Shown in pieces: positions 24,736 through 30,197 of a stretch of 64,000 nt of DNA; within the stretch, counting starts at the first letter, position 1, and every line of letters starts with the position of its first letter. A program made the translations under genes and the position numbers. Source of the stretch: an uncultured Acidimicrobiales bacterium (GTDB lineage Bacteria > Actinomycetota > Acidimicrobiia > Acidimicrobiales > CATQHL01); contig CATQHL010000001.1 in NCBI GenBank assembly GCA_958295925.1, forward strand, positions 1,129,931-1,193,930, in the 5' to 3' direction. The notes below the pieces were generated by a model. The model was not told the origin of the DNA and made no database searches. It worked only from the letters and a program-made list of their open reading frames with translations.

Positions 24736-25626
24736 TTAGGCGCGCACACCCTCACCAAGCGTAGACAGGGGTGGCGGGCGGTCAGCACGGGCACCCAGGT
24801 TGTCAATGAGGCGAGTCCCGCCAACGTTCGCCGCAACCAGCAGCCGGAGATCACCAGAGAGGAAATCAACCGGCATCAGTGTCGCGGCGTCGCGCACTAC
24901 GGCGTAGTCGGGCGAGAGTCCCTTCACCTCGGCCAGCACTAGAGCCATTGCCTCCTCCACAGCGTCTCGGCTTCGCTCCCCTGACTCGATCTTGTCAGAT
25001 CCCACCCGCAGGCTGCGGTACAGCCCCAGGGCCGATTGGCGCTCGGTTGCGCTGAGGTAGGCGTTTCGACTCGAAAGCGCCAACCCGTCGGAGTCGCGCA
25101 CCGTCTCACAACCCAATACCTCCACGGGAAAGGCGAGTTCCGCAGTCAGGCGCCGCACCACCGCCAACTGCTGCCAGTCTTTATCGCCGAAGTATGCGCG
25201 GCACGCCCCTACGACATTGAACAGCTTGGCAATCACCAGACCCACGCCTGCGAAGTGGCCAGGTCGATGCCTGCCCTCGAGGTCGGACGTGAGGCCGCCG
25301 AAGTCAAGGCTCAACGTCTGAGGCGTCGGGTACATCTCGGCGACAGACGGCGCGAACACCGCATCAACCCCCATCTCACGGCAAAGCCCGGCGTCATAGT
25401 CCAGGTCACGGGGGTAGGCGACAAAGTCCTCATCGGGGCCAAACTGGGCGGGATTGACAAAGATCGACACCATCACGGTTTCGTTCTCTTCCCTGCAACT
25501 TCGGATGAGGCTGATGTGACCCTCGTGAAACGCCCCCATCGTGGGCACGAAGCCGATATCCGTCCCGCCGGAACGCGCACGGCTGCAGAAACTTCGCGCT
25601 TCATCAATTCTTTGAAAGATGTGCAT
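24736..25626 (-). CDS. panC: Pantothenate synthetase
   Basis: PanC condenses pantoate and beta-alanine using ATP. The 296-residue protein has 'FVPTMGAFHEGHISLIR', which contains the HxGH-type motif (here H-E-G-H), 'SIFVNPAQFGPDEDF', 'YFGDKDWQQLAVVRRL' and the KMSKS-equivalent loop 'DGLALSSRNAYLS'. I favour ATG 25626. A TTG at 25680 overlapping folK is possible but adds a non-homologous leader. panB and panD are not in the window. Confidence 0.94.
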   Translation of the reverse strand: MHIFQRIDEARSFCSRARSGGTDIGFVPTMGAFHEGHISLIRSCREENETVMVSIFVNPAQFGPDEDFVAYPRDLDYDAGLCREMGVDAVFAPSVAEMYPTPQTLSLDFGGLTSDLEGRHRPGHFAGVGLVIAKLFNVVGACRAYFGDKDWQQLAVVRRLTAELAFPVEVLGCETVRDSDGLALSSRNAYLSATERQSALGLYRSLRVGSDKIESGERSRDAVEEAMALVLAEVKGLSPDYAVVRDAATLMPVDFLSGDLRLLVAANVGGTRLIDNLGARADRPPPLSTLGEGVRA

Positions 25627-25663
25627 CACACAGAGGTAATTTGCGGCAGCCGGAGCCTCATTT

Positions 25664-26146
25664 TCAGGCGTCTTGTTCAAAGAGCGGCCCGAGGCATCTC
25701 ACGCCGGAGGCGTCGAGCGTCTCAGCAGCCGGCTTCCACCGCTCGGCCAACTCCGCTAGGGGAACCATCACGAACGCCCGCTCGAGCATGCGGGGATGCG
25801 GCACCCGCAAGTCGGGCTCGTCCACCTCCTCGCCGTCAACCCACAGCACGTCAACGTCGAGCGATCGTGGCCCCCAACGCACTCGTCGTGTGCGACCGGC
25901 AGCCGCTTCCAGCTCAAGGGAACGTTCAAGCAGATCCCTCGCAGTGCGGTCGGAGCGCACCTCCACGACGATGTTCAGATACGGCCCCTGGGGAGGCCCG
26001 CCAACGGGATCGGTTTCGTAGACAGAAGAGACGCCAACCACGTCAGGAAGGGCTTGCACAGCCTCGATGAGTAGACGCCGACGATCCCCAAGATTGGACC
26101 CCAATCCAAGGAAGGCCCGCCTTGCGCTCCGATCGGAGTCATTCAC
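25664..26146 (-). CDS. folK: 2-amino-4-hydroxy-6-hydroxymethyldihydropteridine pyrophosphokinase
   Basis: HPPK transfers pyrophosphate from ATP to the pterin alcohol in folate synthesis. The 160 residues carry 'FLGLGSNLGDRRRLL', 'SSVYETDPVGGPPQGPYLNIVVEV' and the signature 'RVRWGPRSLDVDVLWVDG', with the metal-binding D-x-D, and 'VPHPRMLERAFVMVPLAEL'. All key elements look intact, unlike the upstream FolP-like protein. I chose GTG 26146, just before the first conserved strand. The longer ORF-track start (26224) overlaps the preceding gene. Confidence 0.92.
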   Translation of the reverse strand: MNDSDRSARRAFLGLGSNLGDRRRLLIEAVQALPDVVGVSSVYETDPVGGPPQGPYLNIVVEVRSDRTARDLLERSLELEAAAGRTRRVRWGPRSLDVDVLWVDGEEVDEPDLRVPHPRMLERAFVMVPLAELAERWKPAAETLDASGVRCLGPLFEQDA

Positions 26147-26174
26147 GGCAGTCTGAGTCGTAAGCCAGGCAGGG

Positions 26175-26684
26175 TCACGAGCGCTGAGTAAGCCCGCTTG
26201 CGGCGAACTCCGCCACGATTTCACGCCCAGGCCCCCCGACGGGACGGCGCAAGATCTGCTCTACCATCGCCACAGCTTGCGGAGGTTCTTTGATCCGGCC
26301 CTTCCACAAGCCAAATCCGGCAAGGAAACCCCCCATCACGTCGTCCACCTTGTCTCGATGCATCAGCAGGATTTCCCCCTTCGCCATCGCACTGGTTATG
26401 GATTCGTAGGCGGTGGCGAGAGTTTCAGGGGTCGGGTTCGAGGGAATCGGAGAATGCAGAAAGTTCACTTCTTCCTTGACATAGTGGCTGATGTTGTGAG
26501 GTCCCGGGATCAGCGACACAAGACAAGTGAACTCGCTGCGCTTGATCCAGATGATCTCCTCGGTCCGCCGCACCATGCGATGATCGCTTCCGTATCCCCC
26601 TGGCCGCTCGCATATAGCCAGATGGGACTTGATGACCCAAAGAAGGTCGCGGGGAGGGATGCCCTCAGCCCAGCGGCCTCTCAC
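26175..26684 (-). CDS. Dual-specificity-phosphatase-fold protein lacking the catalytic Cys (pseudophosphatase)
   Basis: A 169-residue protein whose layout follows DSP/PTP phosphatases: 'WVIKSHLAICERPGGYG', a helix-strand with 'FTCLVSLIPG', 'VNFLHSPIPSNPTPETLATAYESI', then the position of the P-loop. Instead of V-H-C-x5-R-[ST]-G the loop reads 'LLMHRDKVDDVMGGFLAG'. The His is kept, but the nucleophilic Cys is Arg and the phosphate-binding Arg is missing. It is therefore probably not a phosphatase, though it may bind ligand or protein. The GTG start overlaps the stop of the FolP-like gene (GTGA). The slot between folP and folK often holds folB, which is absent here. Confidence 0.68.
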   Translation of the reverse strand: MRGRWAEGIPPRDLLWVIKSHLAICERPGGYGSDHRMVRRTEEIIWIKRSEFTCLVSLIPGPHNISHYVKEEVNFLHSPIPSNPTPETLATAYESITSAMAKGEILLMHRDKVDDVMGGFLAGFGLWKGRIKEPPQAVAMVEQILRRPVGGPGREIVAEFAASGLTQRS

Positions 26685-27445
26685 GTTCTGCCCGCATTTG
26701 TTTTAGCCCGCGCGGGAGGCTTGGCGCCAATTACCCGGGCGACATCGTTGACCTCCTCAAGGTTGCGGCTGCGGATCACCGAGGCTCCGGCAAGCATCGC
26801 CCAAGCCGCCATCGCAAGGGTTGCGTCCAGGGAGGCCGTGCCCTGCAGCTTCAACAATTTCTCCGGGAACTCCCCCCCGTCCACATCCACGACCATCGGC
26901 AGACACGACCGTGCGAGGAGTTCAAGGCTCGCAAAAAGGTCGAGGTCCTGCTCGAACGTGGAAACCCCGATCCCCGGATCGATGTACGCCTCCTCGATCC
27001 CTGCCTGCTCCGCTAAGCAAGCGTGCCTGCGGGAAAACTCCTCCACCCTCCCAATCAGTTCGGCGCCCCTTAGCGTTCCCTGATCGGAAAACACCCCTAC
27101 CCAGGTGGTGTAGATGCCTGGTGGTGGCGCATCGGTGTGCTCGGACACGTCGTTTATCAAGGAAGCCCCTGCAGCCGCCGCCGCTGTGGCCACGGCTGGG
27201 GAACTCGTCGAAATAGACACCCGCACCTCTTTGCTCAGCGAGGCGATGGCGTCGAGCACGAAACCCAGCCTGGAGACCTCAAACCCTCTGCTGTCATTGG
27301 CAAACCCGCCACCACCGACGTCGACAAAATCCACGATGTCCGCACTTTCAGCAATCAAACGCCGTCCCTTCTCCAGCATCCCGGCGTGGAATCCGCCCTT
27401 CGAACCAGGCGACGCCCCCACCGGCAACGTTCCCATGATCTTCAC
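26681..27445 (-). CDS. Dihydropteroate-synthase-like protein with degenerate active site
   Basis: A 254-residue TIM-barrel protein related to FolP. Family blocks can be aligned: 'IMGTLPVGASPGSKGGF' for the N-V-T-P-D-S-F-S-D-G strand, 'DFVDVGGGGF' for D-V-G-G-E-S-T-R-P, 'SLINDVSE' and 'YIDPGIGVSTFEQDL'. Most catalytic residues are lost. N-x-T-P-D-S-F is gone, D-x-S/T is 'SIST', and the S-R-K-S loop is 'DVDGGEFPE', without its Lys. Dihydropteroate synthesis is therefore doubtful, and a new role or pseudoenzyme status is likely. I chose GTG 27445, 14 bp after hpt; ATG 27436 is the alternative. The gene is coupled to the pseudophosphatase gene. Confidence 0.75.
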   Translation of the reverse strand: MKIMGTLPVGASPGSKGGFHAGMLEKGRRLIAESADIVDFVDVGGGGFANDSRGFEVSRLGFVLDAIASLSKEVRVSISTSSPAVATAAAAAGASLINDVSEHTDAPPPGIYTTWVGVFSDQGTLRGAELIGRVEEFSRRHACLAEQAGIEEAYIDPGIGVSTFEQDLDLFASLELLARSCLPMVVDVDGGEFPEKLLKLQGTASLDATLAMAAWAMLAGASVIRSRNLEEVNDVARVIGAKPPARAKTNAGRT

Positions 27446-27458
27446 GTCAATCGCTTTC

Positions 27459-28070
27459 TCACCTGCCCGTCCGCCTGCCTCTGAGGACACCCGAGAGAGC
27501 TTTGAGGCTACCCCCCGTCCTGACGCTCTCGGGGTCTTCGTAGACACTGATGTGGGAAAGGCTGCGGTACTTCTCGTCGAGGTCAAGCCCGTAACCTATG
27601 ACGAATTCGCGGGGAATGGGAAAGCCCACGTATTTTAAATATTCCGGGGGGATGACGCTGTCGGCCTTCACCAGCAAGGCGCATATCTCGAGCGAAGCCG
27701 GGGAGCGTGCCCGAAGCATTCCCAGCAGGTACTGCAACGTCAGGCCGCTGTCTACGACGTCCTCCACCAGGAGGACGTCCCTGCCCCCGATGTCGGTGTC
27801 AAGATCTTTCAGGATGCGCACCTCACCGCTGCTGCGGGTGCCCGCTCCGTATGAGGACACTGCAAGGAAATCAATCGAGACCGGCAACTTAATCTCCCGC
27901 ATCAGGTCGCTCATGAACATAAACGCCCCTTTGAGCACGCCGATCAGCAGCAGCCTGCGACCCGCATAGTCGGCGCTGATGGCCTTTCCCAGTTCGGCGT
28001 TGCGGCGCGCTATGTCTTCGCCGGAGATAAGCGTGTTTCCAACAGGATCGGCCGGCTTTTTTTGCTTCAA
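27459..28070 (-). CDS. hpt: Hypoxanthine phosphoribosyltransferase
   Basis: Hpt salvages hypoxanthine and guanine using PRPP. The PRPP-binding motif is 'DVLLVEDVVDSGLTLQYLL'. 'LIGVLKGAFMFMSDLMREI' and 'VSSYGAGTRSSGEVRILKDLD' are the pyrophosphate-binding and flexible loops, and 'VGFPIPREFVIGYGLDLDEKYR' closes the active site. The protein is 203 residues from the TTG at 28070, which overlaps the tilS stop as TTGA. The tilS-hpt pairing is common across bacteria, but the ftsH gene that often follows is absent here. Confidence 0.95.
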   Translation of the reverse strand: MKQKKPADPVGNTLISGEDIARRNAELGKAISADYAGRRLLLIGVLKGAFMFMSDLMREIKLPVSIDFLAVSSYGAGTRSSGEVRILKDLDTDIGGRDVLLVEDVVDSGLTLQYLLGMLRARSPASLEICALLVKADSVIPPEYLKYVGFPIPREFVIGYGLDLDEKYRSLSHISVYEDPESVRTGGSLKALSGVLRGRRTGR

Positions 28071-28999
28071 GACAGAGTCGACTCCAGGAACAGGCGCCCG
28101 CCCGAGCGCCGAAGTCGCCAGTGTCGACCAACATCGGTCGCCCTCGCGCACCCGGTCGCCACGTCGAGCGCTCGACGGGTAGCCGCCTGGTCAAGAGGGT
28201 GCGGAGATCTCGTTTCCCGGGAAATCCATCTCCTCAGGGTCCAGGCCGCCAAGACGGGCGGCAGTTCTGCGACCGCCCGGCAGTCTGCGGGGTCTACTTT
28301 GACGCTGAGATCGTCGAGCAATTCCACAGCGTCGCGCGCCAGGTCGGCGTGACGGCACAGCAGCGGCACGACGTCCCGTTGAAGAACGTCGTTGAGCAGG
28401 GGCATCACCTCCCGCCTGATGCGGTTGCGGCGAAAGGCGGGATCCTCGTTGGAGGGGTCCTGAAACGGCTGCAGGCCGACCAGGCGACAGATATTGGCGG
28501 TGTCGGCGCGGCGGAGGGCCAAAATTGGCCGACGCCAGCCGGGTTGCATGCCTGAAGCGCCGGAAAGCCCGGCGCCCCTGAACAGGTTGAGCAGCACCGT
28601 CTCCGCCTGATCGTCCGCGGTGTGCCCCAGCATCGACCCCTTGGGCAATGCGGCATGCCTGGCATTGCGCGCCCTCTCCTCAAGGTTCGCGCCCGGCTCA
28701 ACTTCAACCCGGACAGAACGGAAGCCCGCCCCCAGGAAAGTGGCTGCTGATTCCACCAGGGCCGCCTCCTCGCCCGAGTTCCGGCGCAGACCGTGATCTA
28801 CATGAACCGCCTCTACGCTCAGGCCGACGGAGGTGGCAAGCACCAGCAGTGCCAGGGAGTCAGCGCCGCCGGAGACTGCACAGACGGCTTGAGCAGGGAC
28901 CGGCGGGAAGTTGCAGCTTCGCAGGTAGCTGAGAAGTTCCGTCGAATCCGAGGACGCAGCACCGCCGACTAGGCGGGGTCCTGCATCCTGGCGATCCAC
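28067..28999 (-). CDS. tilS: tRNA(Ile)-lysidine synthetase
   Basis: TilS modifies C34 of tRNA-Ile(CAU) to lysidine. The N-type ATP pyrophosphatase loop 'AVCAVSGGADSLALLVLA' contains SGGxDS. 'VEAVHVDHGLRRNSGEEAALV' and 'LGHTADDQAETVLLNLFRGAGLSG' are further family blocks, and 'RNRIRREVMPLLN' is the R-N-x-I-R motif. I suggest GTG 28999 as start (310 residues), overlapping the DUF2342 gene by 31 bp. The ATG at 29053 is the ORF-track start and cannot be excluded. Confidence 0.92.
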   Translation of the reverse strand: MDRQDAGPRLVGGAASSDSTELLSYLRSCNFPPVPAQAVCAVSGGADSLALLVLATSVGLSVEAVHVDHGLRRNSGEEAALVESAATFLGAGFRSVRVEVEPGANLEERARNARHAALPKGSMLGHTADDQAETVLLNLFRGAGLSGASGMQPGWRRPILALRRADTANICRLVGLQPFQDPSNEDPAFRRNRIRREVMPLLNDVLQRDVVPLLCRHADLARDAVELLDDLSVKVDPADCRAVAELPPVLAAWTLRRWISRETRSPHPLDQAATRRALDVATGCARATDVGRHWRLRRSGGRLFLESTLS

Positions 29000-30039
29000 G
29001 ATTCCGGCTCTCGGATCTCCGACATGGTGGGAAGGCACTCTGGACCTCTCCACGCCCTGTCCACAAAATCCATCCCTGAATGCCTCTCCACTTCCTCTAT
29101 GAAGTCCTCCCCGGCCTGGTACTGATTCAATTTGGCCTCAATGCCGGAGACTTGGGTGAAGATTCTGGTAAATCCTCGCGCCGAACGGCGCCGTGCTCTC
29201 AACACCCGCCCGAAGCGGGCAGCCTCGGGCAACTGGTCTGCCCCCGCCCGATCCATGGTCACGTCCCCGTGGCCTTCAAGCAGGCTCATCATCCCTGTGA
29301 GCTTTTCCAGGCTCTCCTGCTGCTCAGCAGGGGCCAGCAGCGTCGACAGGCCGCCAAATCGGAAAGGATCCTCACCCGCCCGACGTGCCTCGAGAATCTT
29401 GCGGACAGCCTCCATCAATCGCTTGGCGTCCGGTTCCACCACGTCGAGAACGTCTTCGACGAGGCTCAGGAAGTGGCTGCGCAGCCAGGGGATGCCCGTG
29501 AACTGCGCCCGATGGGTCACCTCGTGAAGGGCCAGCCACAAACGAAACTCCTGATGCGGGAACCCGTGCCTGCGCTCAAGTCCTGCCACGTTCGGCCCCA
29601 CGTAATACACCATGTCCTGCAATTCGGGGTTGTCGTCCTCGATGATGAGCAGGTCGTACTGACCCAGCACACGAGTAGACATCCAACCCAGCAGAACCCC
29701 TACTTGAGCCCCGGCGATCTTGCGAGTCATCTCCAGCTTGACCCCTGAATCATCGCCACCCTCCGCGAGCCGTTCGCTGAGCGGACGGAGCAGACGCTGG
29801 AAAGAGGCGATGTTGACCTGAATCCACTCGGAGCGGTCTACCACCCGCGAGCGGGCCCGGCCGTTGGCGGACGCCAGCCCAGTTGCCTCGCCCACAAGAA
29901 CCTCCGCCCGCGACGTGGCCTCCCTGAAGTCGTCGACCATGGTGGCGATTTCACGCCAGCGCGGCACCGGGTAGGGCGACTTGTGCGAAACCCGCACGGC
30001 CACGCGCTGAGCGAGGTCCCAGTCCACCGACTGGGACAT
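28969..30039 (-). CDS. Zinc-dependent metalloprotease-like protein (DUF2342)
   Basis: A 356-residue actinobacterial protein. The zincin motif H-E-x-x-H is visible in 'LWLALHEVTHRAQFTGIPWL', and the downstream 'MSLLEGHGDVTMDRAG' probably supplies another ligand. 'YVGPNVAGLERRHGFPHQEFR' is also typical. Members are often annotated as coenzyme F420 biosynthesis-associated, but their substrate is unknown. The start is ATG 30039, overlapping the stop of a small membrane-protein gene (TGATG). It lies next to tilS, a neighbourhood common in actinobacteria. Confidence 0.85.
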   Translation of the reverse strand: MSQSVDWDLAQRVAVRVSHKSPYPVPRWREIATMVDDFREATSRAEVLVGEATGLASANGRARSRVVDRSEWIQVNIASFQRLLRPLSERLAEGGDDSGVKLEMTRKIAGAQVGVLLGWMSTRVLGQYDLLIIEDDNPELQDMVYYVGPNVAGLERRHGFPHQEFRLWLALHEVTHRAQFTGIPWLRSHFLSLVEDVLDVVEPDAKRLMEAVRKILEARRAGEDPFRFGGLSTLLAPAEQQESLEKLTGMMSLLEGHGDVTMDRAGADQLPEAARFGRVLRARRRSARGFTRIFTQVSGIEAKLNQYQAGEDFIEEVERHSGMDFVDRAWRGPECLPTMSEIREPESWIARMQDPA

Positions 30040-30197
30040 CAGGCGTCTCTTTCTTCCTGATCCTCCGGGGGAAACCTGGGTCTGACCACCTTTGCGTGGT
30101 AGCCCACGATCGTGGCGATAATTATCAGTATCCCCCCAGCCACCAGAGGCGGGGCAATCCACCAGTGCCAGACAACCGCCAAGGACAGAAAAGTCAT
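30039..30197 (-). CDS. Small single-pass membrane protein, 52 aa (not in ORF track)
   Basis: This ORF is too short for the supplied track. From ATG 30197 it encodes 52 residues: a short start, one hydrophobic stretch ('IAPPLVAGGILIIIATIVGY'), then a basic and finally acidic tail ('FPPEDQEERDA'). The stop TGA overlaps the ATG of the DUF2342 gene, giving TGATG coupling. That coupling, the clean membrane segment and the charged C-terminus favour a real gene. A role with the DUF2342 protease is conceivable but unsupported. Confidence 0.6.
   Translation of the reverse strand: MTFLSLAVVWHWWIAPPLVAGGILIIIATIVGYHAKVVRPRFPPEDQEERDA

Follow-up and report, generated by a model that had tools for sequence, protein, structure and literature searches.

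Do two neighbouring proteins of a folate operon, both apparently deprived of their catalytic residues, work as a pair, or did they come to lie side by side independently? This question is raised by a locus in the window, i.e. the whole stretch of 64,000 nucleotides of DNA from an uncultured Acidimicrobiales bacterium that was analysed here. An operon on the minus strand, with the order tilS-hpt-P1-P2-folK-panC-lysS-coaX, encodes a protein of the dihydropteroate synthase (DHPS) fold, P1, followed by a protein of the phosphatase-type DSP fold, P2. A first-pass annotation of this DNA described both as pseudoenzyme-like and proposed that they form a repurposed module or a substitute folate route. 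Its coordinates, reading frames and GTGA overlap (26684-26681, minus strand) agree with ours, and the description of two adjacent pseudoenzyme-like proteins is borne out by the residue losses in P1 and P2. The features of the locus are:

24736..25680, minus strand: panC, downstream operon gene
25664..26224, minus strand: folK (HPPK); Pfam HPPK 123 bits, TIGR01498 124 bits
26175..26684, minus strand: P2, class-wide DSP-fold protein without the catalytic Cys, 169 aa
26325..26363 (approximate), minus strand: degenerate P-loop of P2, MHRDKVDDVMGG, residues 108-119
26553..26609 (approximate), minus strand: P2 segment ERPGGYGSDHRMVRRTEEI, residues 26-44, near-invariant across the P2 family
26681..26684, minus strand: GTGA, overlap of the P1 stop with the P2 start, read from the sequence and the translations
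26681..27445, minus strand: P1, putative decayed FolP1 ortholog of the DHPS fold, 254 aa, GTG start
27459..28151, minus strand: hpt (hypoxanthine phosphoribosyltransferase), TIGR01203 191 bits, directly upstream of P1
28067..29053, minus strand: tilS, conserved upstream operon gene

The open frame of P1 contains an upstream TTG, at 27586, as another possible start. The product of folK has its RWGPRSLDVDV motif intact. A Zincin_2 metallopeptidase gene (window 28969-30162) lies upstream of tilS, and it occupies the same place in most of the Acidimicrobiia loci examined. The ancestral order, found in relatives, is ftsH-folE-folP-P2-folB-folK, with ftsH and folE placed between hpt and folP; both are missing between hpt and P1 in the operon of the window. 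The earlier statement that the two genes lie where folP and folB normally sit is thus inexact with respect to folB, as P2 precedes folB in the relatives and does not take its place, and folB has been deleted here.

When P1 was compared with the Pterin_bind profile (PF00809), a check named in the first-pass annotation, it matched the family with 57.3 bits (cut-off 25.5), and its score of 67.1 bits against the DHPS model TIGR01496 lies below the equivalog cut-off of 162.6. Residues were read from an alignment of 39 sequences, comprising 18 intact operon FolPs, 14 proteins of the FolP2 type and seven members of the P1 family; the numbering, mapped by motif, is that of E. coli DHPS. P1 of the window lacks N22, T62, R63, D96, S219, R220, K221 and H257 in this alignment, and retains D56, N115, D116, D185 and R255; among N22, T62, R63, D96, N115, D185, K221, R255 and H257, only N115, D185 and R255 are left. 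In all seven aligned members (the window and six relatives) N22, T62/R63, D96, S219, R220 and K221 are gone and D185 and R255 are kept, H257 is sometimes present in other members of the family, and the glycine which stands in place of K221 is conserved among the P1 members of the window's family. The loss of key residues had been recognized in the first-pass annotation, and N22, T62/R63 and the S-R-K residues are indeed absent; the retained ones had gone unmentioned. Displacement of the catalytic residues to shifted positions, which would have undermined that claim, is ruled out by the same alignment, in which none of them is shifted.

In the phylogenetic tree, the seven P1 proteins form one clade (99/96) nested among the operon FolP1s, FolP1 and P1 together being supported by 100/99, and the proteins of FolP2 type group apart from them (100/100). 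P1 therefore cannot be regarded as a FolP2, since it falls outside that clade and is devoid of the GGVKAGPG and SNK motifs. By topology and synteny, it is the vertically inherited ortholog of FolP1 from the operons of other Acidimicrobiia. The branch leading to P1 of the window is very long (1.88 changes per column), and the P1 members of its family differ by large insertions. Among the family members, dN/dS equals 0.35-0.53 for P1 versus 0.15-0.41 for FolK; selection acting on P1 appears to be relaxed, not neutral. The AF2 model contains a barrel with a pLDDT of 85.8 and low values in the loops of the first lost motifs, and a Foldseek search with this model retrieves DHPS structures (E 6e-15). 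P1 is best read as a relic in a lineage that abandoned de novo folate synthesis. The gene is nevertheless not a pseudogene. No family member seen has an interrupted reading frame, dN/dS stays under 1, and the glycine replacing K221, as well as D185 and R255, is conserved within the family, so that its product may have a new function.

A search for a second folP in the genome, also named in the first-pass annotation, revealed one, at C2:2435564 (L001:1363-2289), which is a FolP2-type paralog and not a canonical FolP1. It belongs to the FolP2 clade and carries the motifs GGVKAAPG and SNK. The gene sits between comEC-like and holA-like ORFs (neighbours named by eye). Proteins of this type, which resemble mycobacterial FolP2 (PDB 2vp8), are class-wide, being found beside FolP1 across many families of Acidimicrobiia. 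FolP2 is 72-76% identical within the window's family, scores above the TIGR01496 cut-off and keeps N22, D96, N115, D185, K221, R255 and H257; T62/R63 are absent in all 14 FolP2-type members. A comparative study from 2007 (PMC1971073) reported that an E. coli folP mutant is not complemented by folP2 of M. leprae, and that genes of the cell wall are found clustered with folP2; salvage of pterin and pABA fragments is mentioned there as well. Because it is of the FolP2 type, we rejected this second, intact-looking folP as a canonical DHPS that would rescue the pathway. As a separate observation, genomes of about 1 Mb assigned to family f22 (G013, G019, G025 and others) have a single FolP with 26-31% identity to the FolP2 query, of which only the first 208 residues align.

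Other steps of folate synthesis were followed, by family searches on which the pathway gaps rest, in the nine available genomes of the window's family, four of them at least 90% complete. FolE, FolE2, FolB and PTPS were each found in none of the nine; for folB and folE this is the outcome of the genome search that had been proposed earlier, and FolE2 and PTPS can be dismissed as a by-pass. The same FolB search detected the protein in 105 of 119 genomes of the class. The genomes are mostly MAGs, and it is unlikely that absence from 9/9 stems from incompleteness alone. With the PabB model, each genome yields two proteins. The first is TrpE-like, its score being 568 bits with an anthranilate synthase model versus 340 with the best of the PabB models, and lies below the curated cut-off of every model, the call of PabB absence resting on this ranking of scores; the other is an isochorismate synthase, above its model cut-off, beside which a MenD-like sequence (MenD by eye) is found in the related locus L190. 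TrpE and MenF are the most plausible identities of the two, with no clear PabB. Hence, since FolE, FolE2, FolB and PTPS are absent and no PabB is evident, there is no pathway around P1 for which it could substitute. FolK is intact and well conserved in the family although no enzyme producing its substrate was found, and an unseen source of hydroxymethyldihydropterin is for this reason possible. The family includes sponge symbionts (the MAG of specimen 277c, a label given to a sample of the sponge Petrosia ficiformis), which together with the pathway gaps makes dependence on external folate plausible. A literature search on folate auxotrophy in Acidimicrobiia found no paper in the collection consulted.

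As regards P2, its AF2 model has a pLDDT of 94.9, the best Foldseek matches include DUSP23/VHZ at the top (E 2e-8, TM about 0.68-0.75) and archaeal Tk-PTP, and a profile search finds the bacterial DSP of PDB 25xa (E 1.7e-12). The DSP fold of P2 and its homology to DSPs are thereby confirmed, as is the earlier reading of its loop, HRDKVDDVMGG (from H109), in place of HCx5R. P2 is assigned to no family of Pfam, NCBIfam or PHROG; the window's protein is unmatched by DSPc (PF00782) at E up to 1, and one of 57 members of the family matches it, with E 0.004. A PAS_3 match of P2 (E 0.004, below the cut-off) is considered a chance one, given the DSP fold. Among 135 aligned rows, some of which come from the same genomes, position 110 is variable and occupied by Cys in four, Arg116 is present in 72 (Val in the window), and the two never occur together. 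H109 is conserved in 134 of the rows, R39 is nearly invariant, and W16, A23, E26, G29, R36, R40 and W46 do not vary at all; in the 57-member alignment, which includes distant homologs from outside the class, the invariant residues are P11, W16, A23, E26, G29, G30, R36, R39, R40, W46 and H109. The HRxVRR part of ERPGGYGSDHRMVRRTEEI is an insertion relative to the active DSP 25xa. Where DSPs have IPD, in the general-acid region, the window has IPSN, and relatives have acidic residues at 83-84, possibly shifted by loop length; the general acid has apparently been lost.

P2 was detected in 185 of the 198 Acidimicrobiia genomes (99 of 104 genera), including genomes of about 1 Mb, and the matching loci come mostly from Acidimicrobiia and Acidimicrobiales; a search on plasmids gave no match. 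It is usually found in the order folP-P2-folB-folK, it directly follows a folP in 114 of 149 locus records (some genomes being counted twice), and it co-occurs with FolB and an intact folP in most genomes of the class, which excludes it as a FolB substitute. Since P2 is class-wide alongside intact folP and folB, the loss of its Cys long predates the loss of folate synthesis, and P1 and P2 did not become a pair in this lineage; the loss of catalysis appears to be ancestral and unrelated to the window. P2 also outlives its folate neighbours. In family f2 (Ilumatobacter-type) it lies behind tilS, without folate genes at its side, and marine lineages, from whose operon folE, folP and folB are gone, have tilS-hpt-P2-folK. 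The latter, marine and Microthrix-like, lineage represents a second loss of these three genes from the operon with P2 and FolK kept. P2-folK with no folP between was seen in marine and Microthrix-like loci L101-L105, L107, L109, L111, L114, L116, L119 and L165; L101 and L103, checked in detail, read tilS-hpt-P2-folK.

Outside the class, a search of the wider phylum detected just three distant P2 homologs, with E about 1e-8, away from folate genes; they have an HCDR loop, and the signature Arg is absent. They belong to the actinobacterial family f61 (L095:1426-1914, L096:1396-1878 and L097:1504 onward), possess ERPGG/HRxxRR motifs, and neighbour a thioesterase-like gene. In genus g45 (L091:1498-2889), P2 has a Lys/Ala-rich basic tail of about 290 residues, as in some nucleic-acid-binding proteins, and the MAG SKS5.bin46 has two P2 copies, located on separate contigs (L126 and L131).

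The explanation which we favour, and consider probable, is that a relic of FolP1 and a class-wide pseudophosphatase acting outside folate synthesis stand next to each other independently. P1 is a vertically inherited FolP1 that has been deprived of its catalytic residues, so that it would no longer make dihydropteroate, and this decay would have proceeded alongside the loss of GTP cyclohydrolase, dihydroneopterin aldolase and, most likely, aminodeoxychorismate synthase. P1 may persist as a folded relic under relaxed selection, perhaps retained by translational coupling, in which its stop codon, within the GTGA overlap, would serve as the site of ribosome hand-over to P2. The P2 family, in turn, would descend from active DUSP23-like DSPs through a founder in which the Cys nucleophile, and apparently the general acid as well, disappeared and the HRxVRR insertion arose. 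Its present members may bind a phosphorylated small molecule, nucleic acid or a protein partner through an Arg/His pocket, presumably in a housekeeping process outside folate synthesis, because P2 is kept after the fol genes go. Homologies, residue losses, distribution, gene order and pathway gaps are direct observations; retention of P1 by coupling, ligand binding and the role of P2 are inferences. The tight association between P2 and folP in most genomes (the 114/149 records mentioned above) counts against this explanation, as do the possible new function of P1, the intact FolK and the ranking of scores behind the PabB call.

It is unlikely that P2 has enzymatic activity through a re-invented site, in which invariant His109, Arg36, Arg39/40 and Glu26 replace the Cys chemistry on a phosphorylated substrate. 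Invariance of charged residues in the 57-member alignment is as expected of a catalytic site, and the P-loop Arg116 is retained in 72/135 rows; however, the nucleophile is missing, the general acid apparently too, and Arg116 has been lost in the window's family. Rather improbable, in our opinion, is a role of P1 as a maintained pseudoenzyme which scaffolds or regulates FolK (or FolP2), by analogy to fused HPPK-DHPS proteins. An intact and conserved FolK encoded in the same operon, the confident barrel, invariant D185 and R255 and the dN/dS values would fit such a role, whereas the branch of 1.88 and the large insertions among members are unlike a conserved interface, and in marine relatives, which keep P2-folK, hpt and P2 are not separated by a folP gene.

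We also doubt that the window's family recycles fragments of pterin and pABA, with no uptake of intact folate, so that FolK and the FolP2-type protein perform the last steps and P1 has been superseded. Strong conservation of intact FolK and FolP2, the catalytic residues and TIGR01496 score of the latter, and the mention of such recycling in PMC1971073 speak for it, but the lack of T62/R63 in 14/14 FolP2-type proteins, the coexistence of FolP2 with FolP1 in other families and the failed complementation by M. leprae folP2 (PMC1971073) do not. Very improbable is the proposal of the first-pass annotation that P1 and P2 are a repurposed pair providing a substitute folate route, e.g. an alternative aldolase step. 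The GTGA overlap, co-conservation within the window's family, and the absence of FolB and FolE with FolK retained could be read in its favour; on the other hand, P1 is degenerate in 7/7 members with its conservation relaxed, not enhanced, P2 is class-wide alongside intact folP and FolB, marine relatives keep P2-folK without P1 after the loss of folE, folP and folB from the operon, and PTPS and FolE2 are absent. The proposal is therefore not upheld.

A tentative suggestion, which we regard as possible though doubtful, is that the P2 family has established on a DSP scaffold without the cysteine a new His/Arg/Glu site, catalytic or ligand-sensing, with a core housekeeping function in the class. 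If true, P2 would be a core function of Acidimicrobiia outside all current family databases, as a protein with near-invariant ERPGG, HRxVRR and His that is encoded by >90% of the genomes sampled across an entire bacterial class and unannotated in Pfam, NCBIfam and PHROGs. P1, under the favoured explanation, would be a folate enzyme caught in mid-decay, with FolK kept and the rest of de novo synthesis lost, and in its family, which includes sponge symbionts, the dependence of symbionts on a vitamin could be put to the test.

Among known systems, P1 most resembles FolP1 (TIGR01496, PF00809), whose ortholog it is according to tree, synteny and barrel fold; unlike FolP1, it is without most key catalytic residues, D185, R255 and, in the window, N115 being those that remain, and it falls below the equivalog cut-off. 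Actinobacterial FolP2 (PDB 2vp8; M. leprae folP2) is an already known case of a DHPS-fold paralog without DHPS function, but P1 belongs to a separate clade, has suffered other residue losses and sits in a folate operon. P2 shares its fold and detectable sequence homology with the small DSPs DUSP23/VHZ and Tk-PTP (PDB 2img, 5z5a; 25xa). It also has the His (H109) that precedes the Cys position, and about half of the family retains the P-loop Arg. It differs from them in that Cys and Arg never coincide in one member, a clear general acid Asp is missing from the expected position, and the HRxVRR segment has been added. Pseudophosphatases are familiar mainly from eukaryotes, where STYX and others have kept the DSP domain as a binding module after the loss of the catalytic Cys. 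P2 resembles STYX in being a DSP fold without this residue, and differs from it as a bacterial, single-domain, class-wide protein with an arginine-rich insertion.
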